Shown here piece by piece: positions 263 through 25,700 of a stretch of 64,000 bases of DNA; within the stretch, counting starts at the first letter, position 1, and each line of letters starts with the position of its first letter. Origin of the DNA: Spiroplasma chinense. GTDB taxonomy: Bacteria > Bacillota_I > Bacilli_A > Mycoplasmatales > Mycoplasmataceae. The stretch is taken from assembly GCF_008086545.1 (NCBI RefSeq), contig NZ_CP043026.1, forward strand, positions 558,001-622,000, read 5' to 3'. The notes beneath the pieces are model-generated. The model saw only the letters and a program-made list of their open reading frames with translations. It ran no database searches and was not told the origin of the DNA. Both the position numbers and the translations under genes were made by a program.

Positions 263-955
263 GTGACACAGGTTTATGCAAACAAAGTCATAGAAGAATA
301 TTTATTAAATATTATTTTTGATGAAAAAGTTGATAAAAGCAAAGCTCTTCCAAGTGAAAATTTCTTGGCAACTAAATTTAAAGTATCTCGCTTAACTGCT
401 AGAACTGAATTGACAAAACTTTTAAACAAAGGCTTTCTTAAAGTTAAAAAAGGCAGTGGTTATTATGTAAATCCTCATATTAATGCTATGAAGGGTAGAG
501 CAATTGGAGAAGAATATAAATTTTCAAAGAAAGTTATTGAAACAATTGATAATTCTTATTTAGGAAAGATTTTAGAATCAACAGCTTTTCAAATTGATAA
601 AAATCTTGATGACTATATAGGTTATAGAAAGATATTTTTTGATGAAAAAGGTGAAGCTTCTTTATACATAAATTCATTTATTTTAAAATCAGAATTTGAA
701 GAAATAGATCTAGATTTCATAAAACAATCATTAATATCTTTTATGCATGCAAATGATGTTGAAGTGGACAATCAAGTTAATTTAGTAGAAGTATTAAACG
801 CAAATGAATTTGATATTCATTTGTTTGGAAGTGAACAAAAATTAACTCCAGTGGTTTTTGGAATATTGGTTTCAAAAAAAGAAAATATAGTAGAAATTTT
901 TGAGAGAAGATATAGACTAGAACACTTTAAATTACAGTTTATGAAAACTTGATAA
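263..955 (+). CDS. treR: GntR-family transcriptional regulator (TreR-like)
   Basis: A 230-aa protein starting at GTG 263, with an AGGTGG ribosome site 6-9 nt upstream. TGA 950-952 is read as Trp and TAA 953-955 ends it. Residues about 1-75 form a GntR winged helix (PSENFLATKFKVSRLTART, then KGSGYYV). Residues about 85-225 look like a UTRA ligand-binding domain with the usual YRxxFF and closing FERRYR patterns. It precedes a PTS permease, a GH65 phosphorylase and beta-phosphoglucomutase. TreR-type regulators bind trehalose-6-phosphate, and a TreR-like operator starts 2 nt past its stop. The family call is firm; the trehalose ligand is inferred from context and from the operator sequence. Confidence 0.82.
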
Positions 956-956
956 G

Positions 957-968
957 TTGTATATACAA
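957..968. promoter_or_regulatory. Candidate TreR/GntR operator, copy 1
   Basis: Perfect 12-bp palindrome TTGTATATACAA, just after the regulator and ahead of the lipoprotein-PTS unit. The identical palindrome recurs at 3663-3674 ahead of the phosphorylase gene. From memory it is the same core as the Bacillus subtilis tre operators. Confidence 0.75.
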
Positions 969-1028
969 CATTTTAAAACTGATTTTTTAGGGTTTTTTGA
1001 CTAAAATACTAAAAAATTCAATATTTAT

Positions 1029-1058
1029 GGGATTATTTTTAAAAATAATCCTTTTTTT
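1029..1058 (+). terminator. Hairpin terminator between regulator and PTS unit
   Basis: Stem GGATTATTTTT / AAAAATAATCC followed by T7. It lies between operator copy 1 and the lipoprotein start, so it could end the regulator transcript or act in the PTS leader. Confidence 0.65.
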
Positions 1059-1126
1059 GGAAAAAAATTGCATTTGTAATAGATTTAATAAAGGTTTTAA
1101 ATTAAGATATAAGAAAGGATGATGAA

Positions 1127-1591
1127 ATGAAAAAACTAATAACAATGATGGCATCCATCTCAGTAGTTTCTTTCACCTCTAGTGTTGTGGTGGCATGTGC
1201 CAACGGACCTATAGTTGAATTAAATTATCAAAATGGAAATGATAGCCATTTAAGTAAATTATTAAGCATCACAAAAGAGAGTCTAAATGACATAAAAACA
1301 GCAAAAGCTCTTTATGATGCAATTGAAGTAAAAGTTAAAGATTTAGATGAAACCAAACAAATTGGTGAATCAGATCTATATGAAAAAACTCAATATTCAA
1401 TCACTTTAAAAGATAAAACGGGCGCAACAATTAGTACTAGAAAAGATGAGGATTTTGGTAAAACAGGAGAAAGAATGTTTATTGTAGTAAACTACTCTAA
1501 AACTCTAAATAGAAAAGAATCAGATAAATTTTCAGTTATTGAAACTGTAGAAAGTGATATTGCAAGTTTTGCAATTATCAATAGAGATTAA
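1127..1591 (+). CDS. Lipoprotein of the trehalose PTS unit
   Basis: A 154-aa protein. Start ATG 1127 follows AAGGATG. Basic MKK, a hydrophobic stretch and a lipobox ending in VVAC (Cys24) give a clear lipoprotein signal. The mature part (about 130 residues) is acidic and hydrophilic, with no TM segment or known domain that I recognise. Its stop at 1591 is 3 nt before the EIIBC start, so the two are translationally coupled. Its place inside a PTS unit suggests a surface accessory to sugar uptake, but that is only an inference from position. Confidence 0.8.
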   Translation: MKKLITMMASISVVSFTSSVVVACANGPIVELNYQNGNDSHLSKLLSITKESLNDIKTAKALYDAIEVKVKDLDETKQIGESDLYEKTQYSITLKDKTGATISTRKDEDFGKTGERMFIVVNYSKTLNRKESDKFSVIETVESDIASFAIINRD

Positions 1592-1594
1592 TTT

Positions 1595-3274
1595 ATGGCA
1601 AAACAAAAATTACTTGATATAGTAGATGATTCTTATTTAGATAAGTTAATGGCGGCATTGGGTGGAAAAGAAAATATTCAATATTCTACTCACTGTTTGA
1701 CAAGACTTAGAATAGTTTTAGCAGATCCTGAAAAACTAAATGAGGCTGAAATTAAAAAAATGGATGGTGTAAAAGGTACTTTTACAGCATCTGGTCAATT
1801 TCAAATAGTTTATGGAACTGATGTTGCAAAAATTTACACTAAATTTGCTAAAAAATTTGGTTTATCGCAGCTTTCAAAACAAGATATTAAAAGAGAAGTA
1901 TTAAAAAAAGAAAATTGATTTAAAAAATTCTTGAACTACATGTCAGATATATTTATTCCAATTGTTCCAGTGTTGGTATCTGGGGGGATTATTTTAGGGA
2001 TTAGAAATATATTTGAAGCTAATTTCAATGAAAATTATTTTATGGGATTTGACGCAAATGGAGACCCAATATTGGGTTGAAGTATGGTTGGAGCCTCACA
2101 ATTTATTAATGGATTAAATGCATTCTTGTGGATACCTGCACAAGCATGTTTCTGGTGGTTACCAGTACATATTTGTTGAAGTATATTCAAAAAAATGGGT
2201 GCAAACGAAATATTGGGAATTATTGTAGGACTTACATTATTAATTTCTCCAATGTTAAACGTTTATGAAGTATTTAACTCAGATGGACTTGGAAGTCTAT
2301 GAATTTGAGATATTGTAGATCAACTAGAAAAACAAGGAAAAGATGTTGCATTTGACTGAGGATTTATGCAATATCCATGAAAAATAGCATATACATCTCA
2401 AGTTATTCCAGCAATTGGAGTAGGAATAACTGGTTCATATATTTGTCTATGAATTACAAGAGTTTGTCCAAATGTTATTAATCAAATTTTAATACCAACA
2501 GTTACAGTTCTTGCAAGTTATACTTTAGCGTTATTCATTATTGGTCCAGTTGGATATATTATGGGTAGTGCAATTGGACTTGCATTCCAATGAGCATTAA
2601 CAAATGATGTGGCAAAATATATATTTGCACCATTAATTGGTTTATTCCATGCAGGCCTTGTAATTACGGGAATGCATCACTTATTAAATGCGGTTATGAT
2701 TCAAAACGTAGCTCAATACGGTGGGGACTTTGTATTTATGTCTGTTTGTGCACAAGCAATCGGACAAGGAAGTGCAGTTCTTGGATGAATGATTTTAAAT
2801 AGAAAAGATCCAAAAGCAAAAGAAGTAGGTTCATCAGCAGTTGTTGCAGCCTATCTTGGAGTTACAGAACCTGCACTATATGGGGTAAATATAAAATACT
2901 TATTCCCATTCATAGCAGGTTCAATAGGTTCTTCAATATCACTATTTATTTGTGTTATGGCAGGGGTTTCTGCACAAGCAATTGGTAATGGTAGTTGATT
3001 GGGAATCTTAAGTGTTCAAGTAAATTCAAAAATGGAAGGAGTTACTACATGAGGGGGAACAGGTTACTTGTGATTTGCAATAGCCAACGTTCTAAATGCT
3101 TCATTATCGGTTACTCTGGCAATGATATTTGGTAAGATGTCTGTATTTAAGAAATTTGATCCAGACTACATACCAACAGCTGAAGATGTTAAAAAATTGG
3201 AAGCTAAAAAATTAGCAAAAGAAAATAAAAAAGCTGCTAAAACTAAAGTTGAAAAAAGTGCAGCAAGTATTTAA
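1595..3274 (+). CDS. treB: PTS EIIBC, trehalose/beta-glucoside/sucrose type
   Basis: A 559-aa protein (ATG 1595; several TGA read as Trp). EIIB covers residues about 1-100, with the phospho-acceptor Cys34 in STHCLTRLR. EIIC is a multi-TM domain from about 115 to 520 with the family motif GVTEPALYGV at about 422-431. The C-terminal tail is Lys/Ala-rich. No EIIA domain is fused, so phosphate must come from a separate EIIA, as in other trehalose systems. It would import and phosphorylate a disaccharide at the membrane, feeding the GH65 enzyme at 3739. Specificity within the Glc family cannot be fixed from sequence alone; the GH65/beta-PGM pair and TreR-type sites favour trehalose. Three of its 16 Trp codons are TGG (residues in FLWIP and CFWW). 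Confidence 0.88.
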
Positions 3275-3292
3275 TAAAATAGGAGAGTAAAT

Positions 3293-3631
3293 ATGGCAAG
3301 AGCAGTTGATAAATCAGATCAAGTAACAAAAGGTGGATGAGCACTAGGCGGGATTTGGTCGGGGTGTATTATAATTGGTACAGTTTTGGCTGGAACTACT
3401 CAGCAATTTCCATACTGGTGGTTGTTGATAATTTTATCAATTGTTAGTACAGCTTTATTTGTAATGTATGTAATTATTACAAAGAAAATTTTAGATAACA
3501 TAGATACTGAACAAAATATAAAGTTGTTGCAAATTCTGTCTATATTCCAAATATTATTTCTAAACATACCAGTATTTTGTTATAGCTTAATAGGGGTTAT
3601 GTTTTATAAGAGGGCATTTTACACTCTCTAG
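3293..3631 (+). CDS. Small integral membrane protein downstream of PTS
   Basis: A 112-aa protein, ATG 3293 after AGGAG at 3281. It has about three hydrophobic segments (roughly residues 15-30, 38-60 and 80-105) with a QFPYWWLL motif. No family recognised. It is co-transcribed with EIIBC (18-nt gap) and followed by a strong terminator. Three of its four Trp codons are TGG, unlike most of the window. Confidence 0.7.
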
Positions 3632-3633
3632 TA

Positions 3634-3664
3634 AAAAAACTAATCTCATAGAGATTAGTTTTTT
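3634..3664 (+). terminator. Strong terminator of the PTS unit
   Basis: 14-bp stem (ACTAATCTC core) with a 3-nt ATA loop and T6. Its last bases overlap operator copy 2. Confidence 0.85.
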
Positions 3665-3674
3665 GTATATACAA
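3663..3674. promoter_or_regulatory. Candidate TreR/GntR operator, copy 2
   Basis: TTGTATATACAA, identical to 957-968, located 64 nt ahead of the GH65 start. This pairing links the phosphorylase/beta-PGM unit to the same regulator as the PTS unit. Confidence 0.75.
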
Positions 3675-3738
3675 CTTATATTTACAAAAATTTTTATAAA
3701 AAAAATTACGTTTAAAATTATATTAAGGAGAAATAAAA

Positions 3739-6003
3739 ATGAGCTTAAAAATAAATTATGATAAATACTCATCAACGGATAGAAAAGTTGAGGAGTCAAA
3801 CCTTTCAATTGCAAATGGTTATTTAGGTATGAGAGGTTCTTTTGAAGAAGGAATGTTAGACCAAAATCTTTCAATTGAGGGAACTTATATAAATGCATTT
3901 TATGATTATTTTGACATTCAATATGCTGCAAAGTACACAGGATATCCAGATATTTACCAAAGAATGGTTCCTGTTGTTAATGCTCAAAATATAGAAATCT
4001 ATATTGATGGTGAAAGAATTTTGTTTGATGAACAAAAAATATCTAATTATAATTTAGAGTTGGATATGACAAGTGGTTTGTTAAAAAGAAACTATGTTTT
4101 TAACTTTAATAGTGAAGAATATTTAGAATTAGAATTTAACAAGTTATTAGACCAACAAAATTATGAATTATTTTTACAAGATATAGTTTTAAAAACAAAT
4201 TTTAAAACCGAAAGAGAAGTTTCTTTAAAATTTCCTTTAATATTTAAAGAGAATTCCGTAGATAAAGGTGTTCCAAATGATCCCAGAGCTTTAATTGAAA
4301 ATTATGAGCCCTTTGAATTAATTGAACAATCAAAAGAAGAAAATAAACAATTAATTGTTTACAAAACTCTTCGTTCAGAACAAAGTTTTGTTTACGGTAC
4401 ATTTATAAAAGGGTTAGAAAGTTTTGATCTTTCAAATTACAAAGAAGGAATTGAATTTACTAAGAAACTTTTAAAAGAAGAGATAAAAATAGATAAAGTA
4501 AATGTTATCTATGAAAATAATTTTGGACAAGTAAATATAAAAACTGCTAATGAAAAATTAGTTGAATATTCAAAAAAAGATTTTGAATTCTATTTAGAAA
4601 GAAACAGTGAGTTCTTTAAAGATTTTTGAAGAAAAGCAGACTCTAACTTTGGAGATAAAAACTCAAATCTTTTAGCACCAAATAACTTCAACATGTTTCA
4701 ATTGTATACACATGTAGGAAAACTTCCTTGAACAAACGTTGCTGCAAAAGGATTGAGTGGAGAAGGATATGCAGGTCATTATTTTTGAGACTCTGAAATT
4801 TATATAGTAAATGCTTTAACTTTATTTGACCCAGAGTTAGCAAGATTAATGTTAATGTTTAGATACAACACTTTAGAACAAGCCAAAGAAAGAGCAAAAA
4901 TAATGACTCATTCTAAAGGTGCTCTTTATCCTTGAAGAACAATTAATGGTGAAGAGACTAGTACTTACTATCCTGCAGGAACAGCACAATACCATATAAA
5001 TGGAGATATTGCTTTTGCAATTGTGAATTACTTTAAAGCTACAAAAGATTTTGAATTTTTATTTAACTATGGTTTAGATATTTTAGTCGAAACTTCAAGA
5101 CTTTGAGAAGATAAAATTGTAGTTTCAAATGGGGTAGGACATATAAATTCTGTAACAGGTCCAGATGAATATCAAATTATTGTAAATGATGATTATTGAA
5201 CTAATAGTGTTGCAGAATTTAATTTACAATGAGTTGGAGAAACTCTTAAATTATTAAAAGAGAAAGATAGTTCATTGTATGATAAAAAAATTAAACAATT
5301 AAATATTTCTGATCTTGAAATTTCAGAATGAGAAAAATTATCAAAAATTATTTATCATAATTTTGATAAAGATTTAAAATTAAATCCTCAACATGATAAT
5401 TTCTTAAAAAGAAAACCAGTTACTAAAGAATTTATAGAAGAACATAAACCATTTTTGAGAAAACTTCACCCATTAGCAATAAATACATTAAGAGTTACAA
5501 AACAAGCAGATGTTGTGTTATCAAACTTATTTTTCTATAACAAAAATGATAGTGAAACTATGAAAAATAATTGACATTTTTATGATGCGACAGACACAGC
5601 TGACAGTAGTTTATCAAAATGTATTTATGCAATAATGGCTGCAAGATTAAAAATAGGTGATTATGGTTTTGAATACTTTAAAGATTCTATAAATTTAGAT
5701 CTATATGATACACACAAAAATACAGATAGAGGTCTACACATGGCAAACATGGGTGGAGCTAGAATGTTTGTTATTTATGGATTATTAGGAATCAATATTG
5801 AATTAGAACATCTTGAATTATCTCCAAGATATAATGAAATTATTGAAGAATATAAAGTAAATGTTATTTATCAAAATAGTGAAATTTGTTTTGAAGTTAA
5901 AAACAAAGTTCTATATATTTCAAAACAAGATGATTCAAATATTAAGATAGTTTTTGAAGGTCAAGAATTTAATCTGCAAGATAGATTGGAAATTAAATTA
6001 TAA
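3739..6003 (+). CDS. trePP: Glycoside hydrolase family 65 phosphorylase (trehalose-6-P phosphorylase likely)
   Basis: A 754-aa protein, ATG 3739 with AAGGAG at 3724. The N-terminal beta-sandwich begins with SIANGYLGMRGSFEEG, diagnostic of GH65. The (alpha/alpha)6 catalytic domain holds KGLSGEGYAGHYFWD and TGPDEY, with the general acid Glu477; KQADVVL follows. GH65 enzymes phosphorolyse alpha-glucobioses (maltose, trehalose, kojibiose) or their 6-phosphates to beta-glucose-1-P. Here a PTS would deliver the phosphorylated sugar, so the products would be glucose-6-P and beta-G1P. Its stop overlaps the beta-PGM start (TAATG). Family certain; the substrate is an inference. Confidence 0.9.
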
Positions 6004-6680
6004 TGCAATATCCTAAATTAGTGATATTTGATTGTGACGGAATTATAACAGAAACTGCAGAACTTCATTATGAGGCTTGAAAACAAGTTTCAAAAGACTA
6101 TTTTGATTTAATTTTAGATGAAAAATTCCTAAATAGATTTAGAGGATTATCTAGAGATAAAAGTTTAGATTTGATTTTAAAGGTTGGAGAAATTAATTAT
6201 TTAGAAGATGACAAAAGAGAAGAAATCATCTTGAAAAAAAATGCTATCTATAAAAATTTAATAACTGATAAAAATAAAGTAAAAGCTTTTGAAACAACTA
6301 TTGAAATGATTCATCAATTAAAAGAAAAAGGGATTTTAATAGCTTTAGCTTCAATTAGTAAAAATGCAAGACAATTATTAGAGGTTAATGAAATAGTTGA
6401 TTTATTCGATTATATTGCAGACCCTCATAATATCAAAAATTCAAAACCTGCACCTGATATTTTCTTGGATGCAAGAGATCACTTTAATTTAACCAGTCAA
6501 GAATGTTGAGGGGTTGAAGATGCAAAAGTTGGTGTTCAAGCAATTAATTCAGCAGGTATGCTTTCAATAGGAGTTGGGGATTTACAAGAAATTAGCCAAG
6601 CAGATATTCAATTTGACAATATTTCTAAATTGTCATTGGAAAATATTGAAAGAATTATGAAAGAAAAAAATATAACTTAA
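6003..6680 (+). CDS. pgmB: Beta-phosphoglucomutase
   Basis: A 225-aa HAD-superfamily protein beginning in the TAATG overlap with the GH65 stop. HAD motif I is FDCDG (nucleophile Asp10, acid/base Asp12), followed by ITETAELHYEAW, the beta-PGM cap entry; motif III Lys is in NSKPAPDIFL and motif IV in WGVEDAKVG. It converts beta-glucose-1-phosphate into glucose-6-phosphate and completes phosphorolytic disaccharide breakdown. A terminator overlaps the stop. Confidence 0.92.
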
Positions 6681-6881: not shown

Positions 6882-8702
6882 ATGGCTGCAACAAAACAAA
6901 ACACATCATCAAAAGCAAAAGGAGAAATGGGAAAACCAGGTACAGAATATATATGACAACCTTTTAGTCCTAAATCTTTAGCGTTAATTAATAAATACAA
7001 TTTGCAAACTGATGAAAGTTACAAAAAACTAATCTCTTCATTCGAAAGAATTGAATCATTACCAAAAGAAGATCCAAGAAAACCAAACCTAGTTGAATTA
7101 TGAGAAGCAGAATTCAATAGATTATTCAAACACTTCTGAGAAAATTACTCATCAAGTGCAAGAAAAAAAGATCAAGGTGTTGGTGGATGAAAAGACAGAT
7201 TAGATGTTAAACCAGCTGCAACATCACCAGATGAAAAAAGAAAAGACTTAATGTCAAGATTATCACCTGGTTCAAATGCTGCAGGAAGAAATTCAAAAGA
7301 AGAAATTTTAAACAGAGCTGGATACCAAAACCAAGTAAAAGTTGAACAATTTAACTTTACTGCAACTCCAAAAACTGGTCAAAATTTACACGAAATTGAA
7401 AACTTGTTAAATATTGCTGAAGAAAAAGGGATGACAACTCCTGAAAGTATTTTACAAAATGGATTTGGAACTGCTGTTGGAAACTCAGTAGTAAACATGG
7501 ATTTAATCGATGAAGAAACTGAAATAATGACTAAAGAAGTTAAACCAGATCCAAACTTATTGGATTTTGTAAATGATACAAAAGTTGCAGCACCAGCTGC
7601 ATCAACTGCAACACCATCTGCATCAGCAACTATTAACAATAATTCACAAAATTTATCAAATACTGGATATGTTGCAAATGAAAATATGTCAAGAGATGAA
7701 TTTAACCAATTAAATAACATTCAAGGAGAATTACCTCCAGCGCAAGATGCTGATGCATTATCGGTTCTTGAACTAGGAACTGAATTCTTCCAATCACAAT
7801 TAGGTGCTCATGAAGCACCAAGTTCTAATAATACAATTACTGGTTCAGCACCAATTGTTTATTCAGAAAAAGATAATTTAATTAATCCAGAAAAAAGAAA
7901 TATTATTTCTAAAGATGGATTTGAAATGCATTCAAATGCAGATGGTTCATTGGTAAGTGGTAAACCAAACTATGACAGTAAAACTGGAGAAGTTATTAAA
8001 CCTTACCACGAAATCAAACCTGTTGGTAATTATGGAATGTCTTATGACTTTGCTAAGAGACCTTCAATGCAAGATTTATTAGAAGCTCACGAAAGAGAAG
8101 GAAGAGCACTTGATGAGATGACTCAAAAAGTTGAATTCCTTAGAGATTTACGTAATGAGCGTCGTCATAGAATTAATATGATGAAAATTGAACGTGCAAA
8201 CAGTTACATTGTTGCTCGTGCAAGAAGAATGGCAGAAGCTCGTGAATTAAAACGACTAAAAAAACGTGAAGAACTTAACCTAAAAAACATTGAAAAAGCA
8301 GATAGATTAAGAAGATTACAAGAACGCCAAAAATTAATTGAATTGATGAAAGAACGTCAAATGAAGAGAGCCGAAGAAAAACGTGTGGCTACTGTTCTAA
8401 GACTGGAAAGAGAAAGACGTTTAGAAAGAGATGCAAAATACAGAGCTGAAATTGCATCTATAGATGCTCAAATTCGTCACGAACAAGAATTGATCAAAAG
8501 AACTGAATTGAAAATGAAAGCTTACTTTACAAGAGTTCATGACGATAAGTTGTTTGATGAATCTTTAAGAGTGGCTAAAAAATCAAGTCAGTTCGCTGCA
8601 CTTGAGAAAAAAGCTGTACAAATGCAAGAATTTGAAGAACAAAAAAGACGTGATAGAATTGAAAAAATTAGTAGAAAATTCAATAAAAATATCAAACAAT
8701 AA
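6882..8702 (+). CDS. Large coiled-coil protein, lineage-specific, function unknown
   Basis: A 606-aa protein, ATG 6882 after TTGGAGG. Residues about 1-115 are a Trp-containing globular-looking segment, about 200-260 an Ala/Thr/Ser-rich low-complexity linker, and about 400-600 a very long, highly charged helix (runs of RR/ER/KR) predicted as coiled coil. No signal peptide or TM, so it is cytoplasmic. Arg codons switch from AGA to many CGT within the coiled coil (about 8149-8580). It heads a set of lineage-specific genes up to 14.2 kb. I do not recognise the family; cytoskeletal or scaffolding use is only a guess from architecture. Confidence 0.85.
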
Positions 8703-8705
8703 AAT

Positions 8706-8745
8706 AATGGGCGGGGTAAGTACTTTAAACTCACCCATTTTTTTT
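8706..8745 (+). terminator. Terminator/attenuator between 606-aa and 360-aa genes
   Basis: AATGGG / CCCATT outer stem with a long loop and T8. Confidence 0.6.
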
Positions 8746-8767
8746 AAATTATAAGGAGTGTGTTAAT

Positions 8768-9850
8768 ATGTCATTTGAAAAAAAAGGTATAAAAACAAAA
8801 TTACCCAAAGAAAAAGTATTAGTTGATGCTAAACTTGGTATTAACACAATTAATGCTCTTACAGGAAATATTGGAAAAATAAATAAAACCGAAATTAGTG
8901 AAGTTACAGTACATGATGCTGTAGCAAAAATGCACAAATCTCAAAAAGCAGAAGATAAATTATCTGACAAAGAATTAAAAAGAGTCAGAGAAATAAATAG
9001 AATAAAAAATAAATCTGCAGGAATAAATACAAAAATAAGTAAATTAGAAGAAAGAAAAAAAACATTCCAAAATACAAAAAAACTTTCTTATGAACTTGAA
9101 ATTGAAGAAAAAAGAAGACAATCAAAATTGAAATCTGGTAAAACATTGGCACAAGTAACAGATCTACAAAAGTTGAATGCTGAAGCTGCTATGATGTTTA
9201 CAAGTTCAGGGCAATCAACAAAGTATAAAATAAAAGACAACAGTAAAATGACAAAAACAAGAAACCTTATGAAGTCAGAAGTGTTTGATATATTTGATAC
9301 AAAAGATTCTAAAAAATATTCATTTAAAAAAGATGGTTTTCAACAAAAACAAAGTGTTAGGGGAGCTAATTTACTTGCTAAATTAGGACCTGTATCTGAA
9401 TCATCCAAATTCTTTGCAAAAGAATTTGGATGAGTTGAAGATGATAGACCTAAACGAGTATTTTATTCTCCTTTACAAGATTATAAAGTTGAGAAAAACG
9501 ATTCAAACCAAAATAACGAATTAGAAGAAGTTGAGGTTGTTGAAGAAATTCAAACAACTTCTACACAAGATAATTTAGATTTTGAAAGACAAAATAGTCA
9601 AGAAGAAATGGATTTGAAAACTATAAATGAACTTGCAAAGAAATTTGCCAAAGAAGCTGAAGAAGCTAAAAAAATAATTGAGAATAGTCAAAAAGATAAT
9701 TCTCACAGTGTTTCAGAAATTTATAACAAAATCTTAAACCAAAGTCCAATTCTTAAGTTGTCAAGACAACAAAAAAACAAAAATGATGATATATCTGCGG
9801 ATATTGATATAAGTAAAATACCATCGATAGTTTTAGAAGGAAAGAAGTAA
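8768..9850 (+). CDS. Lys/Glu-rich cytoplasmic protein, unknown
   Basis: A 360-aa protein, ATG 8768 after AAGGAG at 8752-8757. One TGA (9431-9433) is Trp. It is highly charged, with helical Lys/Glu segments at about 55-130, an acidic stretch at about 245-285 (NNELEEVEVVEE) and an Ala/Lys/Glu helix near 290-310. No TM, signal or recognisable domain. The 14-nt gap to the next gene indicates an operon with the 392-aa and 322-aa proteins. Confidence 0.8.
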
Positions 9851-9864
9851 CAGAGGTGATTGAT

Positions 9865-11043
9865 ATGAATAATTCTAAAAATAAAACAAGCGGTAAAGAT
9901 TTTACACTTATTAGTGAAAAAACAAAAGCAAGAATTAGAGGTTTAATCGAAAAAAGATTAACTGCTCAGACAATTGCCTTATTTGCTCAAGAATACGAAG
10001 CTTATGAACCAGAAATTAGAAAAGAAATTATCGAGTATATCTTATTCTTATTATCAGTTGAAGAAGAAGCGTTAAAAGCAATTGAAGGTGGAGTTGCCGA
10101 TCATAGAGCAAGAATGTTGATGGAAAGACGTAAATTAGAGTTTGCAGAAAAACAATCTAATATACGTAAGATTCAAGACATGCTTAACAAAAAACCAGCA
10201 GGTAATCAAAAACCTAAAGTAGCTGTTAAGTTGGAAGAAAAACCAGTTAAAAAAGAAGAACCAAAAAAGGAAACTAAAAAACAACTTTCAAAATTAGAAC
10301 AAATGCTAAAAGAAGCTCAAATGAGAGAAGCTAAAAATCTAAAAAACGAAAAAGAACAAGAGAAACTTGAAGCAGAACGTAAAGCAAAAGAAGCTGCTAA
10401 AAAAAGAAAAGAAGAAAAAGCTAAACTGGAAAAAGCAAAAAAAGAAGAGCAAAAGAAAATTAGCAGAACTCCTGCTAAAAAACCGCTAAGTTACGACGAA
10501 AAACTTTTAGCTGCACAAGCTGAACAACCTTCTATGATTGAAAGAGATTATGAAAAAGAACAACGTGAAAAGGAAAGACTTTGAAAAGAACTTTATGGTA
10601 AAACAAGAGCAGATTCATTAAAAGAACGCGCTAAGGTGGCCATGAGAGAGTCTGATAGAAGCGAAGCTGATAAAACTCCAACAATTGAAGAAATCTTGTT
10701 GGTAAGCTATGAATTGTATGGAAATGTTTATGATATTGAAGAATTAACAGATCCAAAAAATAAATATTACTTATTCTGAAGTACTATGAAACAAAAATAC
10801 AAAGTTTCAAACATTTCTATTTGAATTAAAGAAAAACCAATTGGTTTTCAAAAGAAAATTTATAAAAAACGTTTAAAAATTGAAAAACAAATTAGCAAAA
10901 AACTTGAACTAATAAACAAAGAAAAAGAAATGCAAGAAATGAAGGCTAAACAAGAAAAAGAAAGATTAGCCAAAGAAGCTGCAAAATTAGCTCAAGAAAA
11001 AGCAGAAGCAAAAAAACAAGAAGAAAATAAAGAAAATAAATAA
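9865..11043 (+). CDS. Charged coiled-coil protein, unknown
   Basis: A 392-aa protein. I chose ATG 9865 because AGAGGTG at 9852-9858 lies 6 nt upstream; an in-frame GTG at 9856 would overlap that site. An N-terminal alpha-helical domain (about 10-95, SEKTKARIRGLIEKRL...) is followed by a long Lys/Glu/Ala coiled coil (about 125-230), a globular middle (about 250-340, EEILLVSYELYGNVYDIEEL) and a C-terminal coiled coil (about 345-392). No membrane segment. Part of the 8768-12073 unit; function unknown. Confidence 0.8.
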
Positions 11044-11104
11044 TTAAGTTAACAAGGTAAAAATTAAAAAACTTATATTATTGGAATAAAGGTGGTTTTT
11101 TAAA

Positions 11105-12073
11105 ATGACAGACATGCAATGAATTTTAATAGGTTTAGGCGCTTTTGCGTTAACACTCGTTCTAACATTTACAATACTTTTCTATCTTGTTTTAAAAGGT
11201 AAGAAAAAAGAGAAAAATATTGAACAAATAACAAGAGAGCCTTACTTCGTTAACGAAAAACATACAAAAGAAAATTGATGAGTCTCAAAAGATGGGGTTT
11301 TAGAAAAAAACTGAATGAAAGGTCAAGATTATGACTTTAAAGTAGCAGTTTTTGATTATTATGAAAACTTTTCTGAAGGATTTTTTAACTCAAAATTTGT
11401 AAGAACAAAATCTTTCTTATTAAAAATTATGGATGTTAAATCTGTAAATAGAACAATTGAAAGATTAAAAATTCATGCTGGTTGTTTGGAGAACATTTGA
11501 TGAAGAAAATACAAGATTTTAATGACAACTTCATTTAAGGAAATGCCGTTGGTTACAAAATCACCAGAATACTTCTTCTACAAATACTACTTTCAATTTA
11601 TATATGAATTAAGAAATGTACTTGCAGATTATCTTGTAAATCATATTATCCCAAATACTATATTTTTAGAATTAAAACCTATTTATTACAAACAATATGG
11701 TATTCAAAAAGTGGATGATCCACAAAAAAATATAGTATTTGCGTTTAATCAAGTTAGCCAAGAAGCTGAAGTATTGGTTGAAAGAATGCAATCTGAATTT
11801 AATGAAGAATTAAATGAAAAAGGTAAAGATTGAATTATTGATTACAAAACTAAATCTGACCTATTAGTTATGCTTCAACCAGACCAATATATTCAAAAAC
11901 TTTTCTTAAAAGAAAAAATTTGAAAAATGACAAAGAAATTCAAGTTACCTCTAACTGATGATTTAGATGAGGCAATAAGAAATCTTGAAGAACATATTAA
12001 AAAAATTGAAGAAGACAAAATCAATCAAGTACGTGAGTACATTGATAGATATCAAGAATTAAAAGGCGCTTAA
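11105..12073 (+). CDS. Membrane-anchored protein of the coiled-coil operon
   Basis: A 322-aa protein, ATG 11105 after AAAGGTGG. One TM helix at about residues 5-31 (WILIGLGAFALTLVLTFTIL) is followed by a KGKKKEKN stop-transfer patch, giving a large cytoplasmic domain rich in aromatic and charged residues (EYFFYKYYFQFIYELR) and a C-terminal helix with coiled-coil character (about 290-322). It is the only membrane anchor among its operon partners, so it could tether them to the membrane; that is inference. No family recognised. Confidence 0.8.
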
Positions 12074-12102
12074 AGTTTTATAAACTATTAAGTGTTTTTT
12101 TT
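12067..12102 (+). terminator. Terminator of the coiled-coil operon
   Basis: Two stacked stems: CGCTTAA/TTAAGTG enclosing AGTTT/AAACT, then T8. Confidence 0.85.
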
Positions 12103-12197
12103 ACTTTTAATTTTTAAAATATCTAACCAAAATAAAGTTTTGACTATTATTAGAGCAAAATTAAAGGTATAATATTTTTAATATTGGAGGATTTAAT

Positions 12198-13571
12198 ATG
12201 CTGTATACTGCAAGTGACGCAATTGATTTGGTATATCGAATTATAGGTAAAACTTCTTCGCTGTCTATTTCTAAAGGTAAATTAAGTAATGATAAATGTA
12301 GATTAATCGCACAAGATATCAAGGAATTTTATAGAGAGCTATTTAAAAGAAGAATTAAACATGAAAATGAAATAGAAGCTTATTTTAATGAGTATCAATG
12401 AAGCTTTGTGAGTTCTGATGATGATCAAAATATCTTATTAGAAGTAAAGGAATTTATTAAAAATAACTTCCTTATTAGTGAAAAATCAGATTACTTCTTA
12501 TCAGAAGAACACGTTCACGAAGAATTGAACAAAATCTATGATAAAGCTTTAGATAACAGTTTTGTTGTTGATAAGGAATCAATAAATTGAAATAAAACTG
12601 TAAAACTTATTGAATCAAGATTCCTTACATGAGTTCAAAATAAAAGTTTAAAACAAAATAGTGAATTAAAAGCAAGATTATTAACTATTTTAGATAGTAT
12701 GAATGAAAAAGAGGAAGTAAATTATCATCAAAAATCAGAATTACTTGTCCAAACTATGGATAAATTACAAAAATTTGTAAGTGAATATGAACTTGGAAGA
12801 GTTGAAAAAGTAAATGAAAATAGTGAAAAATATGAAAGATATCTTTACACATTAAAAACTTTTGAAAGTGTTCCTTCTGGATTTAATTTAGAAACTTACA
12901 TAAGTTTTGAAAAAATCTATACTCAGGTAAGAATCTTACCAGATGATGCAAGTATGTGAGAAATTGATTTTACAATGGACTTGTTAATTAGAGTGTTTTT
13001 TGCAACACTTGTAAACAGTTTAGTAACTTCAGGGACTTTTAGTATTTGAAATGCAAAAATTGAAATGATCAGATCAAATGGTGGTTGAAAAATAGATAAA
13101 AATAAAGAAATTGTAAGAAATATGTATATTGCTTTAACTCAAGATGATGACAAAAAACGTGAATTAATTAAATTTAGTGGTAAAAAACTAAATAGAGACT
13201 TAATTGATATTGCAAAAAAACTTGTTAAATTAGTTCTTGAATTAGAAACAGTTGAAAAATTCTCTTCAATTGAAAAGAAAGAAACATTTGATGTTCCTAA
13301 TGTTGATGTTATTTCTGTGTATTTTGTTCAATTAGCAAATTTAATTAAGTATCATGAAGCTGGAATTTCAGATAGTTTCTTAGCTCACCCAGGTGAGGTT
13401 GTAGGAAACTTTGATATTGCTATTGCTGATGCTTTATTGGATTTTAATAATGTAAATAATGTTTTAACTGCTGTTAAAAAAGCAGATAACAAAATTGCAG
13501 ACTTCCCTGATGAAGTTTGTTTACGAACAATTCACTATATTGAAAAACTTGGTGAAATTACAGACTTTTAA
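12198..13571 (+). CDS. Cytoplasmic helical protein, unknown
   Basis: A 457-aa protein, ATG 12198 after TTGGAGG. Five TGA codons are read as Trp. It is all-helical looking, with no signal or TM segment. A TATAAT box at 12168-12173 is probably its -10. It ends in its own terminator but is followed 45 nt later by a Cys-rich protein. I do not recognise a family; it is read as part of the lineage-specific cluster. Confidence 0.8.
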
Positions 13572-13594
13572 AAATCGTAAATTACGATTTTTTT
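13571..13594 (+). terminator. Terminator after the 457-aa gene
   Basis: AAATCGTAA / TTACGATTT stem with T run. Confidence 0.8.
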
Positions 13595-13616
13595 ATTGAA
13601 ATGGAGGCAAAATAAT

Positions 13617-14246
13617 ATGTGTTGTGGATGTGATGCATCATTATTAGAAAATTGTAATTGTTCACTTTACGAAGAAAAGTGCGAGAAACCGGTTTGTTGT
13701 TGATGTTGTGTTTATCAAAGATGAATAAAATTTGAAAGTGAAGGCAAAATTTACAGTACTTTAATTGCAGATATTGAACTTGTATCATCTAAAGAAAAGC
13801 ATTTAAAAGTTGCTAAAAAATTTGTAAAAGATCAACTTAAAGATATTGAACATATCAATGCAGAGTTTTCAAAGTATAAATCTAAGAGATATATTCAAAT
13901 GGTTGATGGTGACAACGACCTTGACACTCTTGTAAATGAGATTGAAAACGATTTAGGTCAAAAAATTCGTTGTCAATTAAATGAATGAGAAGTTTATATT
14001 GAGATGTGTAATGTTTTTCTTGATTTTCAAGATGCTTTTGTCTCAAAATTATCTTATTTAAATATGTTTGAAATGTCAGAAGGTATTTTTACAACATTAT
14101 TTGAGATGGCTCAATTATTTTCAAAAGTTCTTAAAACTGAGCAAAATATGAGCTTTATAGCAACTACAAAAGAAAAATTTGTAGATCTTGAAGGGGTTTT
14201 AACCAAATTTCAAGAGAACTTAAACCATAAAATTAGTACATTATAA
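13617..14246 (+). CDS. Protein with extremely Cys-rich N-terminus, unknown
   Basis: A 209-aa protein, ATG 13617 after ATGGAGG. Ten cysteines fall in the first 31 residues (2, 3, 5, 13, 15, 22, 27, 28, 30, 31) in CC, CxC and CCWCC clusters, followed by an ordinary charged helical domain with three more Cys. No hydrophobic signal. The N-terminus could bind metal or a cluster, or be acylated; nothing in the sequence decides. The reading frame is supported by the strong ribosome site and the TAA stop just before the tig promoter region. Confidence 0.78.
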
Positions 14247-14303: not shown

Positions 14304-15593
14304 ATGAAATTTAGTGCTAAAAAACTAGCAGAAAAAGGGCAAGGAGCTTGAATTGTTACTATCGAAGGTGAAGAATGAGCAGAAGCTGTTAAAAAAGGTA
14401 AAGCTAAAGCTGCTGCAAACTTAGAAATTCCAGGTTTTAGAAAAGGAAAAGCACCACAAGAAAAAGTGGCTCAATACTTAACACCAGTTAAATACTTGAA
14501 CTCAGCAGTTCAAAGTATTTTAGAAAAAGCTTGAGATTTTGCAAAAGAACAAAATAGTGATGTTCAACCATTTAACTCACCAGTTCCAACTCCAACCAAA
14601 ATCTCTGAAAAATCATGTGAATTAGAATTTGTATTTGACCTAAAACCAGAAATTAATATTGGTGAATACAAAGGATTAAAATCAAAAGAGTTAGTTAAAG
14701 AAGAATTTGAAGCAACTAAAGAAGAAATTGAAAAAGCAATTGATCAATACAGAGAAAGATTTGCTTTAGAAAAAGATAAAGAAGCTGATGCAGTTATTGC
14801 AAAAGGTGATGTTGTTAAATTTGACTTTGAAGGATTTATAGACGGAGAAGCATTTAAAGGTGGAAAAGGATTAGACTTTAGACTTGTAATTGGTTCAGGA
14901 AACATGATTCCAGGATTTGAAGATGCAATGATCGGTAAAAAACTTGGAGAATCTACAATTAAAGTAACTTTCCCAAATGATTACACTCCAGAATTATCAG
15001 GAAAAGAAGCTGAATTTAAATTAAATGTAAAAGAAATCAAAGAAAGAGTTTTACCAAAAAAAGATGATGAGTTGGCAAAAGATTTAAACTTACCAAACAT
15101 CAAAACTTACAAAGAACTTGAAGAAAATGTAAAAGTTCAAATAGTTGAACAAAAAACAACTACTTTAAAAAACGTATTTGTAAATAAAGTAATTGATATG
15201 ATTATTGCAAATTCAAAAATTGAATTACCAAAAGCTGTAATCAACAAAGAAATTGACTCATTATACAAAGAATTTGAAGCTAGAGTAGCTGGTCAAAAAC
15301 TTTCAATGAAAGAATACAAAAAACAAACAGGTATGACTGATGAAGACATTCGTGCAGAATTATTTGATGATGCAAAAAGAAGAATTAGTTCTCATTTAGT
15401 TACTGATAAAGTTAGAAACAATGAAAACTTCGAAGTTTCAGCTGAAGAAATTAATGAAAAATACACAAAACTTGCTAGTCAATTTGGTCTAGAAGTAGAT
15501 TACATTAAAGGATCAATTTTACCTGAAGCACACGTAAAAGAAGAAATTTTAAAAGAAAAATTAATTGATTTCTTATACGTAAACAACGGTTAA
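14304..15593 (+). CDS. tig: Trigger factor
   Basis: A 429-aa ribosome-associated peptidyl-prolyl isomerase/chaperone, ATG 14304 after GAGGAGG. The N-terminal ribosome-binding domain carries GFRKGKAP at 44-51, an FKBP-type PPIase domain lies at about 160-245 (KGDVVKFDFEGFIDG, PGFEDAMIGKKLGE), and a helical C-terminal chaperone domain runs to the end. Normal length. It meets nascent chains at the ribosome exit. It stands alone between a TATAAT box (about 14262) and a terminator. Confidence 0.96.
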
Positions 15594-19415: not shown

Positions 19416-20195
19416 ATGAGAACAAGTTTACAAATTAGAGAAGATCTTGCAAGAACAGGTTATATTTGAATGCCAAATTATAAAGACATTTTGGTTAAAG
19501 TATGAGCTAATATGGAAACATACTTTGATGATGATGAATCTGTTGAATCTGCACTTTGAGCAAGTTTCAAAAGATATGATGAAGAAATGATAGGGATAGT
19601 TTTTATCACTACAAAAAGAACATTTACTATTGAAGTGATTGATGGAAATGATAATGCTCAAATAAGATATTTACCATTTGACTCTTATAGTTTACAAAAA
19701 ATCCAGCTACAGCTTTCTAAAAGTGGGACAGGACTTAATTATGTGTCGCTTTTAAACGATAGTTTTGGTAATGGTATTACTTTTGCCACACCAAATAAAG
19801 ATGTTGCCCAACACTTTGTAGACACTTTAAGAGGGAAAACAAATGGTGAAATTGAAAAATTACCAGATTCAGATGATCCATTGTTGGCTGAAAATGAAAA
19901 AGAACAGGTAATTGATGAAAATCTTGAAAAGGCTGAAGAAATAGTTCCTCATAAGTTTGAAAAAAAACATGAAGAAATTAAGCCTATGAAAGAACATGAT
20001 GGTTGAAGAAAAGCACCACCAGATAATAGGGATAAAGAAATTGAAATTAAAATTGTTCCTGCAAAACCTGAAAAACCAAAGAAAGTTAAAAAGGATGGAT
20101 ATGCATCTAAATGACAATCTAAAACATGAATGTTTTGGTTTGCAATACCAATTTCAATAGTTGCAATTATTGCTTGTTTATTGATATTCCTATAA
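19416..20195 (+). CDS. Tail-anchored protein with possible PH-like domain
   Basis: A 259-aa protein, ATG 19416 after GAAGGAGG. The N-terminal beta-rich domain of about 130 residues has a PH/YokE-like pattern (FITTKRTFTIEVI, RYLPFDSYSLQKI, GITFATPNKDVAQHFVDTL). A highly charged Glu/Lys/Pro linker follows (about 135-235), then one C-terminal TM helix (about 238-259). No signal peptide, so the domain should face the cytosol. The PH-like reading is inference from pattern. Probably co-transcribed with rarA (27-nt gap). Confidence 0.75.
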
Positions 20196-20198
20196 AAA

Positions 20199-20225
20199 TA
20201 AAAAAAACGCATTTGCGTTTTTTTA
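20199..20225. terminator. Bidirectional terminator between convergent genes
   Basis: AAAACGC / GCGTTTT stem with ATTT loop; A-tract on the left and T-tract on the right serve both strands. Confidence 0.8.
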
Positions 20226-22568
20226 AACTCTATTTAATTCGAAAATATTTCATTTACCATCTTGTTCTTCTTGTAATCCAACTTTATACATATATTTATT
20301 TCCAGTTTCAACATCATTATAAACCAAGTTATAAGTGATTGTTCCCCCAAAACTATTCATACTTAAACCATTGTTTTTGATATTTTTAGTTTTATATCTA
20401 GTTTTATCAAGAGGTTTAGCTATTTGTTCTGTTATATAGTTTTGTTTTTTAACACTGTTAACTTTAAATCCATTCATAATACTTGCTAAACAATTTATAA
20501 CATCTTTATCTCTAAAGATTAATTGTAAACCTTTTAATAAACTGTTATCTCTAAAAGTTTTGGTTTTTTCATCGTATCCAAGAATAGACATTGCACCATC
20601 ACTTCCATATGAAACATCACTTCCATATTTAAATCCTAAACCAGGGTTTTCAGAAGTAAGTTTTAAAGCTTCAATTAAATTTTTACCTTCAGCATAAATT
20701 GAATTTGAGTTTCCTGGAGGCGCTTTTTTGTAGTAAATTGTGATATTATTTGCATTTTTTAATGCATTTGTTAAATTATCTATCCCTTGTTCAAGAGAAG
20801 TTTGTTCTGCTCTCTCTTGGGTAGTGTTTTTAAAACCTGTATTTAATTTTGAATAAAGGTTAGTTAAAGCGTCATATAATGTTAGACCATCATCATTTGT
20901 TATTGTTAATAAATTATAAAGATTTATATTTTTCCCATTTATTTTAACTTGTAATAGGTCAGACAAGAATGAAGAATCTGGTGATCAAATTGCATCATAA
21001 GAATTTCTCAATATTTCAGGATCAGGGAAAGGAAGGTCAACATTAAATGATTTTAATAATTCTACCAGGCCAACCAACGATTCATTGTTTGTTAATTTAT
21101 CTACTAAATATGGAATAAAGTTTCCTAACAACATTGCTCCTGTATCTTTTAAACTTCCCAAGTCTAGGTTTAATAATGTTGGTAAATTAAAACCTATAGC
21201 ATGAATCAACATACTTAAAATGTTGTCAGGTGTATCTACACTAGAAAAATTATTAGCCAATCAACTTGTTCACAAGTAGTGATCATCAGGCATTTCAACT
21301 TTTTGAGCAGAACTATTGCTGTTCAATAAAATTAGTGCTAATTTTCTAAAGCCAAGACCATTTTTATCATTGCCTATATTAGTTGCTATTTTTAAGTTAC
21401 TTATTGCTTTTTTAAATGAAAAATTCTTTTCAAAATTAGATGCAGAAAAATCGTCTAAAAACTCTTTGTTTGTTTTTGAGGAACTTAATAAATGATTCTC
21501 ATCACTTAATGAAGAGTCTAATTCGATGATACCTGGTCTAATTAACACAGCTCCAATTATAAAAAATATATCTTTTAATGATGAGATTAAACCTATTATA
21601 TCTAGGTTATCAAGGCCACCACTAAAAATTTCTCCAATTGTTGTTGCTAATTTTTCATCTAAGAAAGTTGAGTTAAAATTTTTTATAACATCTGAATTAA
21701 TCTCAACAACTTTATCGCTTTTACCAAAAATTCTAGCAACAGCATTATTCAATCTTACTGCAGCTTCTCTTTGAATATCTTCTTGAGTAATTGTCTCATC
21801 TTTATAATCAGATAACATAATTTCATTTACATAATTATCTATAATTGAAACAGCTTTAGAATTCATTCTTGAAAATAGATTAATTATAAATTTAAATATA
21901 CTATTTACAATTGACCCTACATCAGAAGAACTAAAGTCAACTGATAAGAAGCTTGAAACAATAAGTTCAAACAAATCTGAATTAGAAGCAAATTGAAATA
22001 ATGTGCTTAAAACAGGTTTAATATCTGCTAAAACATCTCCCAAACTATCTAATATCGATAAATCAAAGTTATTTCCAATTAATCCAAGTAATGTTGGTAA
22101 CAATCCTTTAATTGAACCAACTAAACTTGGTTCAATACCTCCAGCTGTTTGAATTAAACTTAACACCATACTGATTGTTCCGCCAATTTCGTCAAATGAA
22201 GTTGTTGCAGTTTTTGTACCTTCTAAATTTAAATTTGTGTTTTCAATTGAAACAAAATAATTTTTGTCCAATGTTTTTCCAAATGTTCCTTCAACAAGTT
22301 GATCAACTTTTGTTAATGTTGAAGTTCCAAAGTTATCCATAACATCCTTTGCATAATTTCCATTTAAGTATTGTCCTGCATAATTTACATTAACATTATT
22401 TGTATCACTTGCAATAGCTGCACGAATTGCTACACTTGCATTTTCAACAACTTGTTTTACTTTGTTTTTAATGTACTCTTTTTCATGATTTACTAGCGAA
22501 CAAGCAGAAACACTTGCAGCAGAAACCAAAATTGAAGCACTTGATAATAAAGCTAATAATTTTTTCAT
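20223..22568 (-). CDS. Large surface lipoprotein
   Basis: A 781-aa protein. ATG 22568 is chosen because it starts the MKK signal and follows AGAGAAG; a signal peptide with lipobox SVSAC gives lipidated Cys23. The body is Asn/Ser/Leu-rich, with hydrophobic helical segments (SLGDVLADIKPVL, FKFIINLFSRM). Its general layout is that of the big paralogous lipoproteins of Spiroplasma/Mesoplasma and resembles the two at 57440 and 59616. Four TGA codons (seen as TCA on the plus strand) are Trp. Divergent from the giant FtsX-type permease, with which it may cooperate; no function can be assigned. Confidence 0.85.
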
Positions 22569-22666
22569 TTTCTTCTCTCTTTTCCCGAATATCATTTTTA
22601 TTTTACTATAATTTATTATAATTTTAAAAATTTTAAAAGAGTATAGAAATTATAAAAAGTATTTTA

Positions 22667-22690
22667 AATTATAAAAATTTTTTTATAATT
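22667..22690. repeat. Inverted repeat in the lipoprotein/permease divergent promoter region
   Basis: AATTATAAAAA / TTTTTATAATT, 11-bp perfect arms with a 2-nt gap, midway in the 195-nt divergent spacer. A promoter-like TTGAAA-N16-TAAGAT for the permease lies just right at 22712-22739. Role unknown: operator or AT-rich cruciform. Confidence 0.5.
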
Positions 22691-22763
22691 GTCATATAAT
22701 AAAAAATGTACTTGAAATATAAAAAAATAGTTATAAGATATTAAAGATAAGTGGGAATAAAAG

Positions 22764-25700
22764 ATGAAAATAAGTAGTATTTTTTTATACCTTAAACAAG
22801 GTATTAGAGGAGTTATGAAATTTAAGGTGCAATTCTATGTGATTGTTATTTTGACATCAATTGCAACAATGATTTTAAGTATTTCATTATCTGCCTCAAG
22901 TAGAATTAAACAAAACTATGATTCAATAACTTCAAAAATGGATAAATTTGATTACATAACTTCAAGAGAAGTTGGTTCTCAATCAACTAAAGATCCAAAA
23001 ATGGTGCCATTAGTTGATTTTATTGATTCACAAGCTTTAACTGTTAATTATTTAAATAAAGGTCTTGAAGATCCGCTAAACGAGGGATTATCATACAACT
23101 TTAATTTAATTGATTCTTCTAAATTTTCTAATTTAGATAGTTTTAAAGATTTGAAAGACCTGACCAGAAATGACTATCTAAATAGTTACCAAAAAACATT
23201 TATATCAACTGCATTTGATTCTCAAGAAGTTCAAAATGCAATGTTTGATTTGTTTGCGAATGATAATTATTTAGAACCTTTCTTTCATTATGAATACAAT
23301 TATGAAAAAGATAGTGTTACATATAAAACTAACTATGATAAATATAATCAAGGTGTAATGAATGGTTCATTAATGTTTAGAGATGTTAGAAGCACAGGGT
23401 CTTCACGTTTCAATAACTTTGCAACTGTTGCTATGAACAACATGGTAACTTCATTCTTAGAAGATCTATTTAATTACAATGGAGTAGAAGGGCAAAGCGC
23501 ACCGTACTTAAAAACTTCTGCGTTTTATAAATTAAAAAATCTTGGTTTAATTAAAAAAGATGATTTTTCTTTAGATTTTGACAATAATCAAAACAAATAT
23601 CAAATTTATATGATTACAGCATTTAACACTGTATTGACAAGTGTAATAAATAATGCAAATGAGTATCTATCTAACTTTATTGATCAAGCTGTTGTAAAAA
23701 TTGCAGATAAAAGTAACGATAGTCCAAAAGAACAATTAGCAAAAGAATTTAATGCTAACTTTGCTGATTTAGCAGGTTTTGAATTCTATGAAAACAATAA
23801 AAATAATAAAGAAATTGCAGAAGTGTTATATGAATTTATTATGGGTTCAAAACACAATAGTCAAACAGCTTCAAAAAAAGCAAGTGATTTTGTAGTACAA
23901 GGAAATAACTTAGCATGAGTTGAAAAAGTTAACTATGGAACTGGTGATAAAGAATATTTTGATAAAAATCTATTATTAAATAATAGGGATAATAAATATG
24001 CCTATGGAAATAGAGGAAGTTTAATTCAAATAGTGGCTCCATTCGATGCTGATGGTAATTTACCATCAAGAATTGGTAGAACTAATGGTCAAAAACTTCT
24101 TCAATTAGAAGATGCAAAACTATCAATAAGTCAGGTTTTAGCTCACTTTGTTGGATTCGAAGATTATGCAGATAGAGATAATGTAACTTTCCAAAACGTA
24201 AATAACATTAGAACTTTTTATTTAAGAAATCAAATTTTAGGAAACGCAACTCAATTTAGAGTTGAACAAAGAGCTGAAATTTCTCTAACAGATAGTACAA
24301 AAGAAATGAAGTACAGAATGGTTGTGCTTGATGATTTATGAAGAGAAAGATTATCAATCGTTGATGGTAGAGCACCATTGTCAAATGATGAAATGGTTAT
24401 AAATCCTCAATATGCAAACAAAAACAAAATCAAAATTGGACAAAGACTTTCAGTAGGGGGAGCAGAATTTACTATTACAGGTTTTGCTTCAGATCCTCTA
24501 ACATATTATCCAGTTTCTGATGAAAACACATTCCTACCAAACAGTCGTAAAAGTTTAATTCTTTACGCTGATATGGAAGTAATTAATAAAATATTTACAG
24601 ATGACTTTAGAAAATTTGCTTCAAGAAGTGTTTATACAATTCTTACAGCAAAAGATGGTGTAAATGCTGAAGTTGCAAAAAAAGATTATGAATCATTGCA
24701 AATGCAAAGCGTTAAAGATATACCACAATTTCTTAATGTGAAAAACAAAATTTCAAATGGTGAAGATGCTCCAAATGTAGCGATTAGATCTGGTGAAGAG
24801 TTATCAAGTTTTGAAGACTCAAATTTAAAATACAACTGAGTTGTAGCACCAAAAATCATCTTTATCTTTAATCTATTTTCTGGAATTGCAAGTTCAGTGA
24901 TTGCAGCAATAGCACTTTATGCAATGATATTGGCTGTTAAAAAAACAATCGAACTAAACTCTGGGGAAATTGCTATTTTAAAAGCTATGGGAGTTAAAAC
25001 AAGTTTAATTTCTTTATCATATATTTCATATGGTTTAATCACAACATTTGTTGTTGTTCCAGTTTCTTGATTAGCTGCAATGTTTTTACAAGAAATAATA
25101 GTTCAAATATTTTTATCATATATGACAGGATCGTATTTAAATATATTCTTTGACTATTTGCCATTCTTGTTGGCGGTCATGTTATTTGGGGTTCTTTCAA
25201 TAATAATTTCATATATTGTTGCCATATCATTAAACAAAAAACCAGTGATTGAAATACTTAATAAAAAAGAAAAAGTTAAACGTTATGAATTGATTGATAA
25301 AATCAAAAATTCTATGACAAGTAGAATGAGTTTTTCAAAAAGATTTAGTACAGAACTTGCTTTCTCTGGTTTCTCAAAAACATTATTAACAGGGGTTACA
25401 ATATTTATTTCAACCTTCTTTGTTACTTTATGTCTTGCAATACCTGGAGTAATTCAACAAACGGTAGGTTCATATTATAAAAATGTTAAGTATGCAAACT
25501 CTGTTGAGAATATTGAATTACTAGGAAATGCACCACTCTCAAAAACAGCTTTATCACCATGACAAGGTGTTGAATATTATGAAGATAAATATACAGATTC
25601 AAATGGTATATTTGGAACTAGTTTCTCAAAAATAGCTAATTCTATTTCTTCTAATATGTCTATTCAAGACAATTCAGTATTACCTACATTGGTAATGGGT

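Follow-up and report, generated by a model that had tools for sequence, protein, structure and literature searches.

TopJ, a J-domain protein, is among the components of the terminal organelle of Mycoplasma pneumoniae, an internal scaffold. Swimming of Spiroplasma involves an internal ribbon (fibril and MreB1-5). Most of the work on swimming covers four species, namely S. melliferum, S. citri, S. eriocheiris and S. poulsonii (Takahashi and Miyata, PMC10074174). In the Citri clade, the mreB locus also encodes a "7th protein" (SPE_1229), a predicted extracellular lipoprotein reported to be absent from the Apis clade (PMC10074174). Here, a cluster of six genes (g1, g2, g3, g4, g5 and g6) is described from Spiroplasma chinense. 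The window, i.e. the whole stretch of 64,000 nucleotides analysed (G000:C1:558001-622000), belongs to a 1.37-Mb single-contig genome in which TGA was read as tryptophan. The six open reading frames adjoin one another on the plus strand at positions 6882-14246 of the window, upstream of the trigger factor gene tig. The cluster looks like a unit because it encodes one membrane anchor, keeps its gene order and insertion site and carries a peptide common to two of its proteins. With a probability of roughly 40%, its proteins form a single scaffold complex that is linked to the membrane and specific to the lineage of Apis-clade-type Spiroplasma; we infer for this complex a physical association of the proteins, membrane anchoring and a cellular role.

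Relatives were searched for in 60 genomes of the bacterial family, in genera coded g1-g12 (these codes are always preceded here by the word genus or genera and are distinct from the gene names). Gene g1 was found in 28 of the 60, comprising 20/20 genomes of its own genus and members of five further genera. It was not found in the other 32, even by profile search, and the same 28 carriers were recovered when 298 genomes sampled from the order were searched. The genes g3, g4, g5 and g6 are patchier than g1. Gene g2 occurs in nine genomes and, in a shorter and weakly similar form, in genus g9; g5 occurs in 10 genomes and g6 in 18 of the 20 genomes of the window's genus. The genes g1 and g3, mostly with g4, are found together across four genera (genera g1, g4, g6 and g9). 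The order g1-(g2)-g3-(g4)-(g5)-(g6)-tig was held in every fetched locus with two or more members; order and adjacency are conserved across species, as in one operon or complex.

The insertion site is also conserved. The cluster-free genera examined, except genus g8, have the order fmt-efp-MMB_0454-tig-lon, with a gap between MMB_0454 and tig that is usually 8-35 bp (one overlap and one genome without an MMB_0454 call were seen). Most carriers have the cluster exactly between MMB_0454 and tig. In a tree of tig and lon, rooted with genus g8 as a chosen, not tested, outgroup, all carriers formed one group (Shimodaira-Hasegawa-like approximate likelihood ratio test, SH-aLRT, 93) beside the Entomoplasma/Mesoplasma-type clade. 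This distribution fits a single gain on the stem of the carriers, or an older gain followed by one loss. Judged by tree position and MreB content, the carriers are apparently the Apis-clade part of Spiroplasma; genus g8 would be the Citri-type part, and genera g2, g3, g7, g11 and g12 would make up the Entomoplasma/Mesoplasma/mycoides part.

The gene g4 (11105..12073, plus strand) encodes a protein of 322 aa with an N-terminal transmembrane (TM) helix and a cytosolic domain, and is the only one of the six with a clear TM helix. Its residues ~64-240 (11294..11824, plus strand) match the region before the J domain of a membrane J-domain protein. A comparison by hhalign, for which the J domain and most of the TM region had been trimmed away, gave 98.1% (E 7.6e-14, 171 columns) against ≤0.9% in nine control comparisons. 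The membrane J-domain protein family is present in most genera of the bacterial family, and the motif HPD was seen in 32/32 of the proteins collected. The Pfam DnaJ model matched 0/19 g4 orthologs. On this profile evidence g4 is a second, J-less copy of the membrane J-domain protein, a paralog and not itself a J-domain protein, because the window's genome retains an intact J-protein with HPD (C1:448023-448856). The N-terminal TM helix is present in 16 of the 19 orthologs and typically has basic residues after it, from which a cytosolic orientation of the domain is predicted. Weak "g4" matches near tig in cluster-free genomes are probably DnaJ proteins matched by the J-domain rows of the alignment. 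Structural alignment of g4 by VIA-align gave Z ≤7.3 to various bundles of helices, FAT and BAR among them; according to the tool such scores may reflect a common arrangement, and nothing was concluded from them.

The descent of g4 from a membrane J-protein would also suit a membrane-tethered module of protein quality control, in which g4 still binds clients and the cluster acts as a chaperone or substrate adaptor with trigger factor, Lon and DnaK. The genes tig and lon are immediate neighbours of the cluster, and the evolutionary rates of g1 covary with those of trigger factor. However, tig and lon are adjacent also in genomes without the cluster, so the neighbourhood says little. The DnaK-recruiting J domain is missing from 19/19 g4 proteins, with an intact J paralog elsewhere in the genome, and chaperones do not typically have a charged rod and long linkers. 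A quality-control role is thus regarded as unlikely.

The gene g1 (6882..8702, plus strand) encodes a protein of 606 aa with a conserved N-terminal region, a variable linker and a conserved C-terminal charged helix; its ATG start at 6882 agrees with the N-termini of the orthologs. The charged helical region (residues 400-606; 8079..8699, plus strand) contains 35 R, 25 K, 30 E and 9 D (net +21). About half of its residues are charged and many i to i+4 ion pairs are present. Within the genus this region is 74-91% identical to that of the window, which exceeds the values for trigger factor (67-81%) and in most of these genomes falls slightly short of those for Lon (82-88%). The charged helix of about 200 residues described by the first-pass annotation was recovered, but the coiled coil proposed with it was not. 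The excess of heptad periodicity was 0.087, whereas shuffles averaged 0.118 and 1662 of 2000 of them reached the observed value; a hendecad pattern was inspected without a shuffle control. Judged from the sequence, a canonical coiled coil is less likely than a single stiff helix or an extended surface for binding.

Such a basic helix could instead bind RNA, ribosomes or the nucleoid, with g4 providing a membrane tether. The helix is Arg-rich and highly conserved, and in relatives the site is bordered by fmt, efp and tig, genes connected with translation; these genes, however, are present there also without the cluster. The 39 acidic residues of the helix argue against nucleic-acid binding, as does the lack of a known nucleic-acid-binding family or PDB relative of g1, and an association of this kind seems improbable.

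The gene g2 (8768..9850, plus strand) encodes a basic protein of 360 aa. A conserved peptide, D-x-x-K-x-P-S-[I/M], is common to g1 and g2. In g1 it reads DFAKRPSM (residues 389-396; 8046..8069, plus strand) and directly precedes the charged helix, and in g2 it reads DISKIPSI (residues 347-354; 9806..9829, plus strand) and lies near the C-terminus. When all 8-column windows of 14 protein families (91 pairs) were compared all against all, 0/1000 column shuffles reached the score of this match. The P-loop of Lon and RarA, a positive control, ranked first, followed by a match between g4 and g6 (GCLENIWW/CCVYQRWI) and then by the g1-g2 peptide. The g4-g6 match was reached by 2/1000 shuffles, but its score is driven by Cys and Trp and it was set aside. 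The peptide is retained in nearly all g1 sequences and in 12/12 g2 sequences, where D347, K350 and P352 are three of the eight invariant columns of the family. Four sites in the 1.37-Mb genome match its DNA pattern, against two for a reversed control. The four sites are in g1, in g2, in a short frame outside any long frame, and in a regulator whose sequence reads as RpiR-type. The peptide may be a docking motif, and it suggests that g1 and g2 belong to one complex or have a common partner.

A looser form, DKTPTI (10669..10686, plus strand), is found in g3, where K269 is invariant among 21 orthologs and K-x-P is kept in most; it did not stand out in the 8-column window test. The gene g3 (9865..11043, plus strand) encodes a protein of ~392 aa with a conserved helical N-domain, a Lys/Glu-rich linker and a conserved C-domain. 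No paralogy among g1, g2 and g3 was detected beyond the peptide. The shorter g2-like protein of genus g9 carries DLSKRPxx at its extreme C-terminus. An N-terminal NKKPTF in an MreB (L150:10058-11098) fits the loose form and is probably a coincidence within the actin fold.

The common peptide also bears on whether there is any system here at all. If the interval from MMB_0454 to tig is a permissive site, unrelated lineage-specific genes might have gathered in it, and the loss of g2, g4, g5 and g6 one by one, like the sugar operon directly upstream of g1 in the window's genome, would agree with this. Such a gathering is nevertheless quite unlikely in view of the peptide, of the joint occurrence of g1 and g3 across four genera, and of the fact that no plasmid or viral (phage) relatives of g1 were found. 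An envelope, secretion or host-association complex tied to the insect-associated life of the clade is very unlikely: the clade restriction of the cluster and the patchy, fast-evolving g2, g4, g5 and g6 would suit it, but no secretion-system homology was found, the set has only one clear TM segment, and the core protein, unlike most surface factors, is very conserved within the genus.

The remaining two genes are g5 and g6. The gene g5 (12198..13571, plus strand) encodes a protein of 457 aa predicted to be almost entirely helical (pLDDT, the model's confidence score, 82). The gene g6 (~13617..14246, plus strand) encodes a protein of ~209 aa with an N-terminal Cys cluster followed by a hydrophobic and charged remainder. 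A TTG start at 13596 is probably too early, the orthologs starting with M-x-CC. The Cys cluster (13620..13709, plus strand; invariant C9, C10, C20, C22, C29, C35, C37 and C38, numbered in the 13596 frame) may bind metal. The gene tig (14304..15593, plus strand) is the fixed downstream border and lies outside the cluster.

These results can be set against the first-pass annotation. Its six adjacent same-strand genes are real genes, with ortholog matches to E 1e-200 and an order kept in relatives. The single-TM anchor with a cytosolic domain, the all-helical protein and the Cys-rich protein (g6, 12 Cys) were confirmed as g4, g5 and g6. Of the two proteins called Lys/Glu-rich, g3 is strongly so (K+R 26%, D+E 19%) and g2 less so (20% and 16%). 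The statement that no family is recognisable holds for five of the six proteins, which gave only sub-threshold matches in scans with Pfam and NCBIfam, but not for g4 with its J-protein paralogy. The order is kept in Spiroplasma-type carriers, but the cluster is absent from the Entomoplasma/Mesoplasma-type genomes of the sister clade, to which the proposed synteny check extended. The genes are not scattered in relatives, and a known relative was found for g4 only. The description as a lineage-specific, unit-like cluster with one membrane anchor agrees with the order, insertion site, peptide and TM helix given above.

Other scans were negative. PHROGs and PADLOC gave nothing credible for the six proteins, PDB sequence profiles gave no match for g1, g2 and g3, and Foldseek searches with models of g4 and g5 gave nothing at E under 1. 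Weak matches of g5 and g6 to designed or unrelated proteins among the PDB profiles were not taken as relatives. An M20 dipeptidase encoded beside the J-protein was ruled out as a relative of g5 by Pfam scan. Promoter-like sites in the locus were not in excess (49 against 47 in shuffles), and no terminator-like site was found on its plus strand.

In the proposed scaffold complex, g1 would be the core, in which a flexible linker joins the conserved N-terminal part to a long helix that is charged and stiff. The proteins g1, g2 and probably g3 would use the same docking peptide to bind each other or one common partner. The cytosolic domain of g4, the J-less copy, would tether the scaffold to the membrane, and g5 and g6, the latter with a possible metal site, would be later accessory parts. 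The complex would most likely organise internal structure of the helical wall-less cell, at the attachment of the ribbon, the cell end or the division site. A structural role fits the single membrane anchor, the conserved charged rod, the variable linkers, the docking peptide and the presence of MreBs in every carrier. MreB-type matches number 4-9 in each carrier genome, and 1-3 much weaker ones are found in the sister clade.

The narrower proposal that the cluster is a cytoskeletal or cell-pole organiser, e.g. a linker at the cell end or between ribbon and membrane of Apis-clade Spiroplasma, is possible but doubtful; the first-pass annotation had likewise suggested cytoskeletal or cell-pole machinery. 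The same holds for its suggested composition, which would be a charged-rod protein, adaptors with a docking peptide in common, and a co-chaperone turned into a membrane anchor by loss of its J domain. If true, two helical wall-less branches would share an MreB core but differ in the accessory proteins around it.

Several observations weigh against a scaffold and its link to the cytoskeleton. Fourteen genomes of genus g8 have 5-6 MreB matches and no g1 by profile search; the cluster is therefore not needed for helicity in general. The association with MreB comes from a single clade (sample size ~1), and no direct link of the cluster to MreB or fibril was found. The rate covariation of g1 with two MreBs (0.71-0.75) is matched by that of g1 with trigger factor (0.82), and g1 and g3 do not covary (0.12). 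The covariation with MreB seemed specific in a first run, was not so in a run with more controls, and was dropped as a specific link. The peptide was noticed before it was tested, i.e. post hoc, and three g4 proteins of genus g9 have no TM helix. Single members have been lost: genome G042 has a broken g3 and no g4-g6, g4 of genome G045 is broken by stops, and the locus of genomes G005, G050 and G051 holds g1 alone. The loci of G042 and G045 have the appearance of decaying clusters.

In the four species in which swimming has mostly been studied, a conserved set of genes restricted to the other clade would have escaped notice. No description of the cluster was found in the literature searched, although one could lie in subscription papers or behind unnamed locus tags. 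New here are the ancestry of g4 and the g1-g2 peptide, as read from sequence profiles, and the conservation of the g1 helix with no heptad periodicity. The cluster offers concrete targets for asking what else ties internal structure to the membrane, and in g4 a co-chaperone paralog minus its J domain has been retained in a lineage-specific cluster.

Other features of the window were also noted. The sugar operon directly upstream of g1 (263-6680) stands where many relatives have fmt-efp-MMB_0454 and contains a GntR-type regulator, a lipoprotein-like open reading frame, a phosphotransferase system (PTS) permease-like open reading frame, a GH65 phosphorylase and a beta-phosphoglucomutase. A 259-aa protein with a C-terminal hydrophobic stretch (19416-20195) is conserved beside rarA and has no Pfam family. 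At 20223-28073, a 790-aa lipoprotein-like open reading frame (minus strand) lies beside a 1769-aa FtsX-domain permease (plus strand).

Among the known systems, the terminal organelle of M. pneumoniae resembles the proposed complex as a Mollicute internal scaffold including a J-domain protein; the NCBIfam terminal-organelle models matched 0/6 of the proteins in single-protein hidden Markov model scans, which could miss remote relatives. The DjlA-like proteins of this bacterial family, which are membrane-anchored and have a J domain, share with g4 an N-terminal TM helix and the homologous cytosolic domain. In contrast to them, none of the g4 orthologs examined has a J domain, and g4 is encoded within the cluster, whereas the J-proteins are encoded elsewhere in the genome. 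The likeness to the Spiroplasma swimming ribbon lies in the restriction of the cluster to genomes with several MreBs and in the proposed internal, membrane-linked role. No sequence relation to the ribbon was found, although the list of the S. eriocheiris ribbon fraction (PMC5289999) was not compared sequence by sequence; that list is for a species probably of the group without the cluster. The cluster also differs from the ribbon machinery in being absent from the MreB-bearing genus g8. In the window's genome, a 131-aa open reading frame (L150:9518-9913) that was seen in just three of the relatives examined lies among the mreB genes, in a position like that of the Citri-clade 7th gene. SPE_1229 itself is likewise clade-restricted, with a relevance to swimming proposed from its conserved gene position (PMC10074174), whereas the cluster appears to have the opposite clade pattern.

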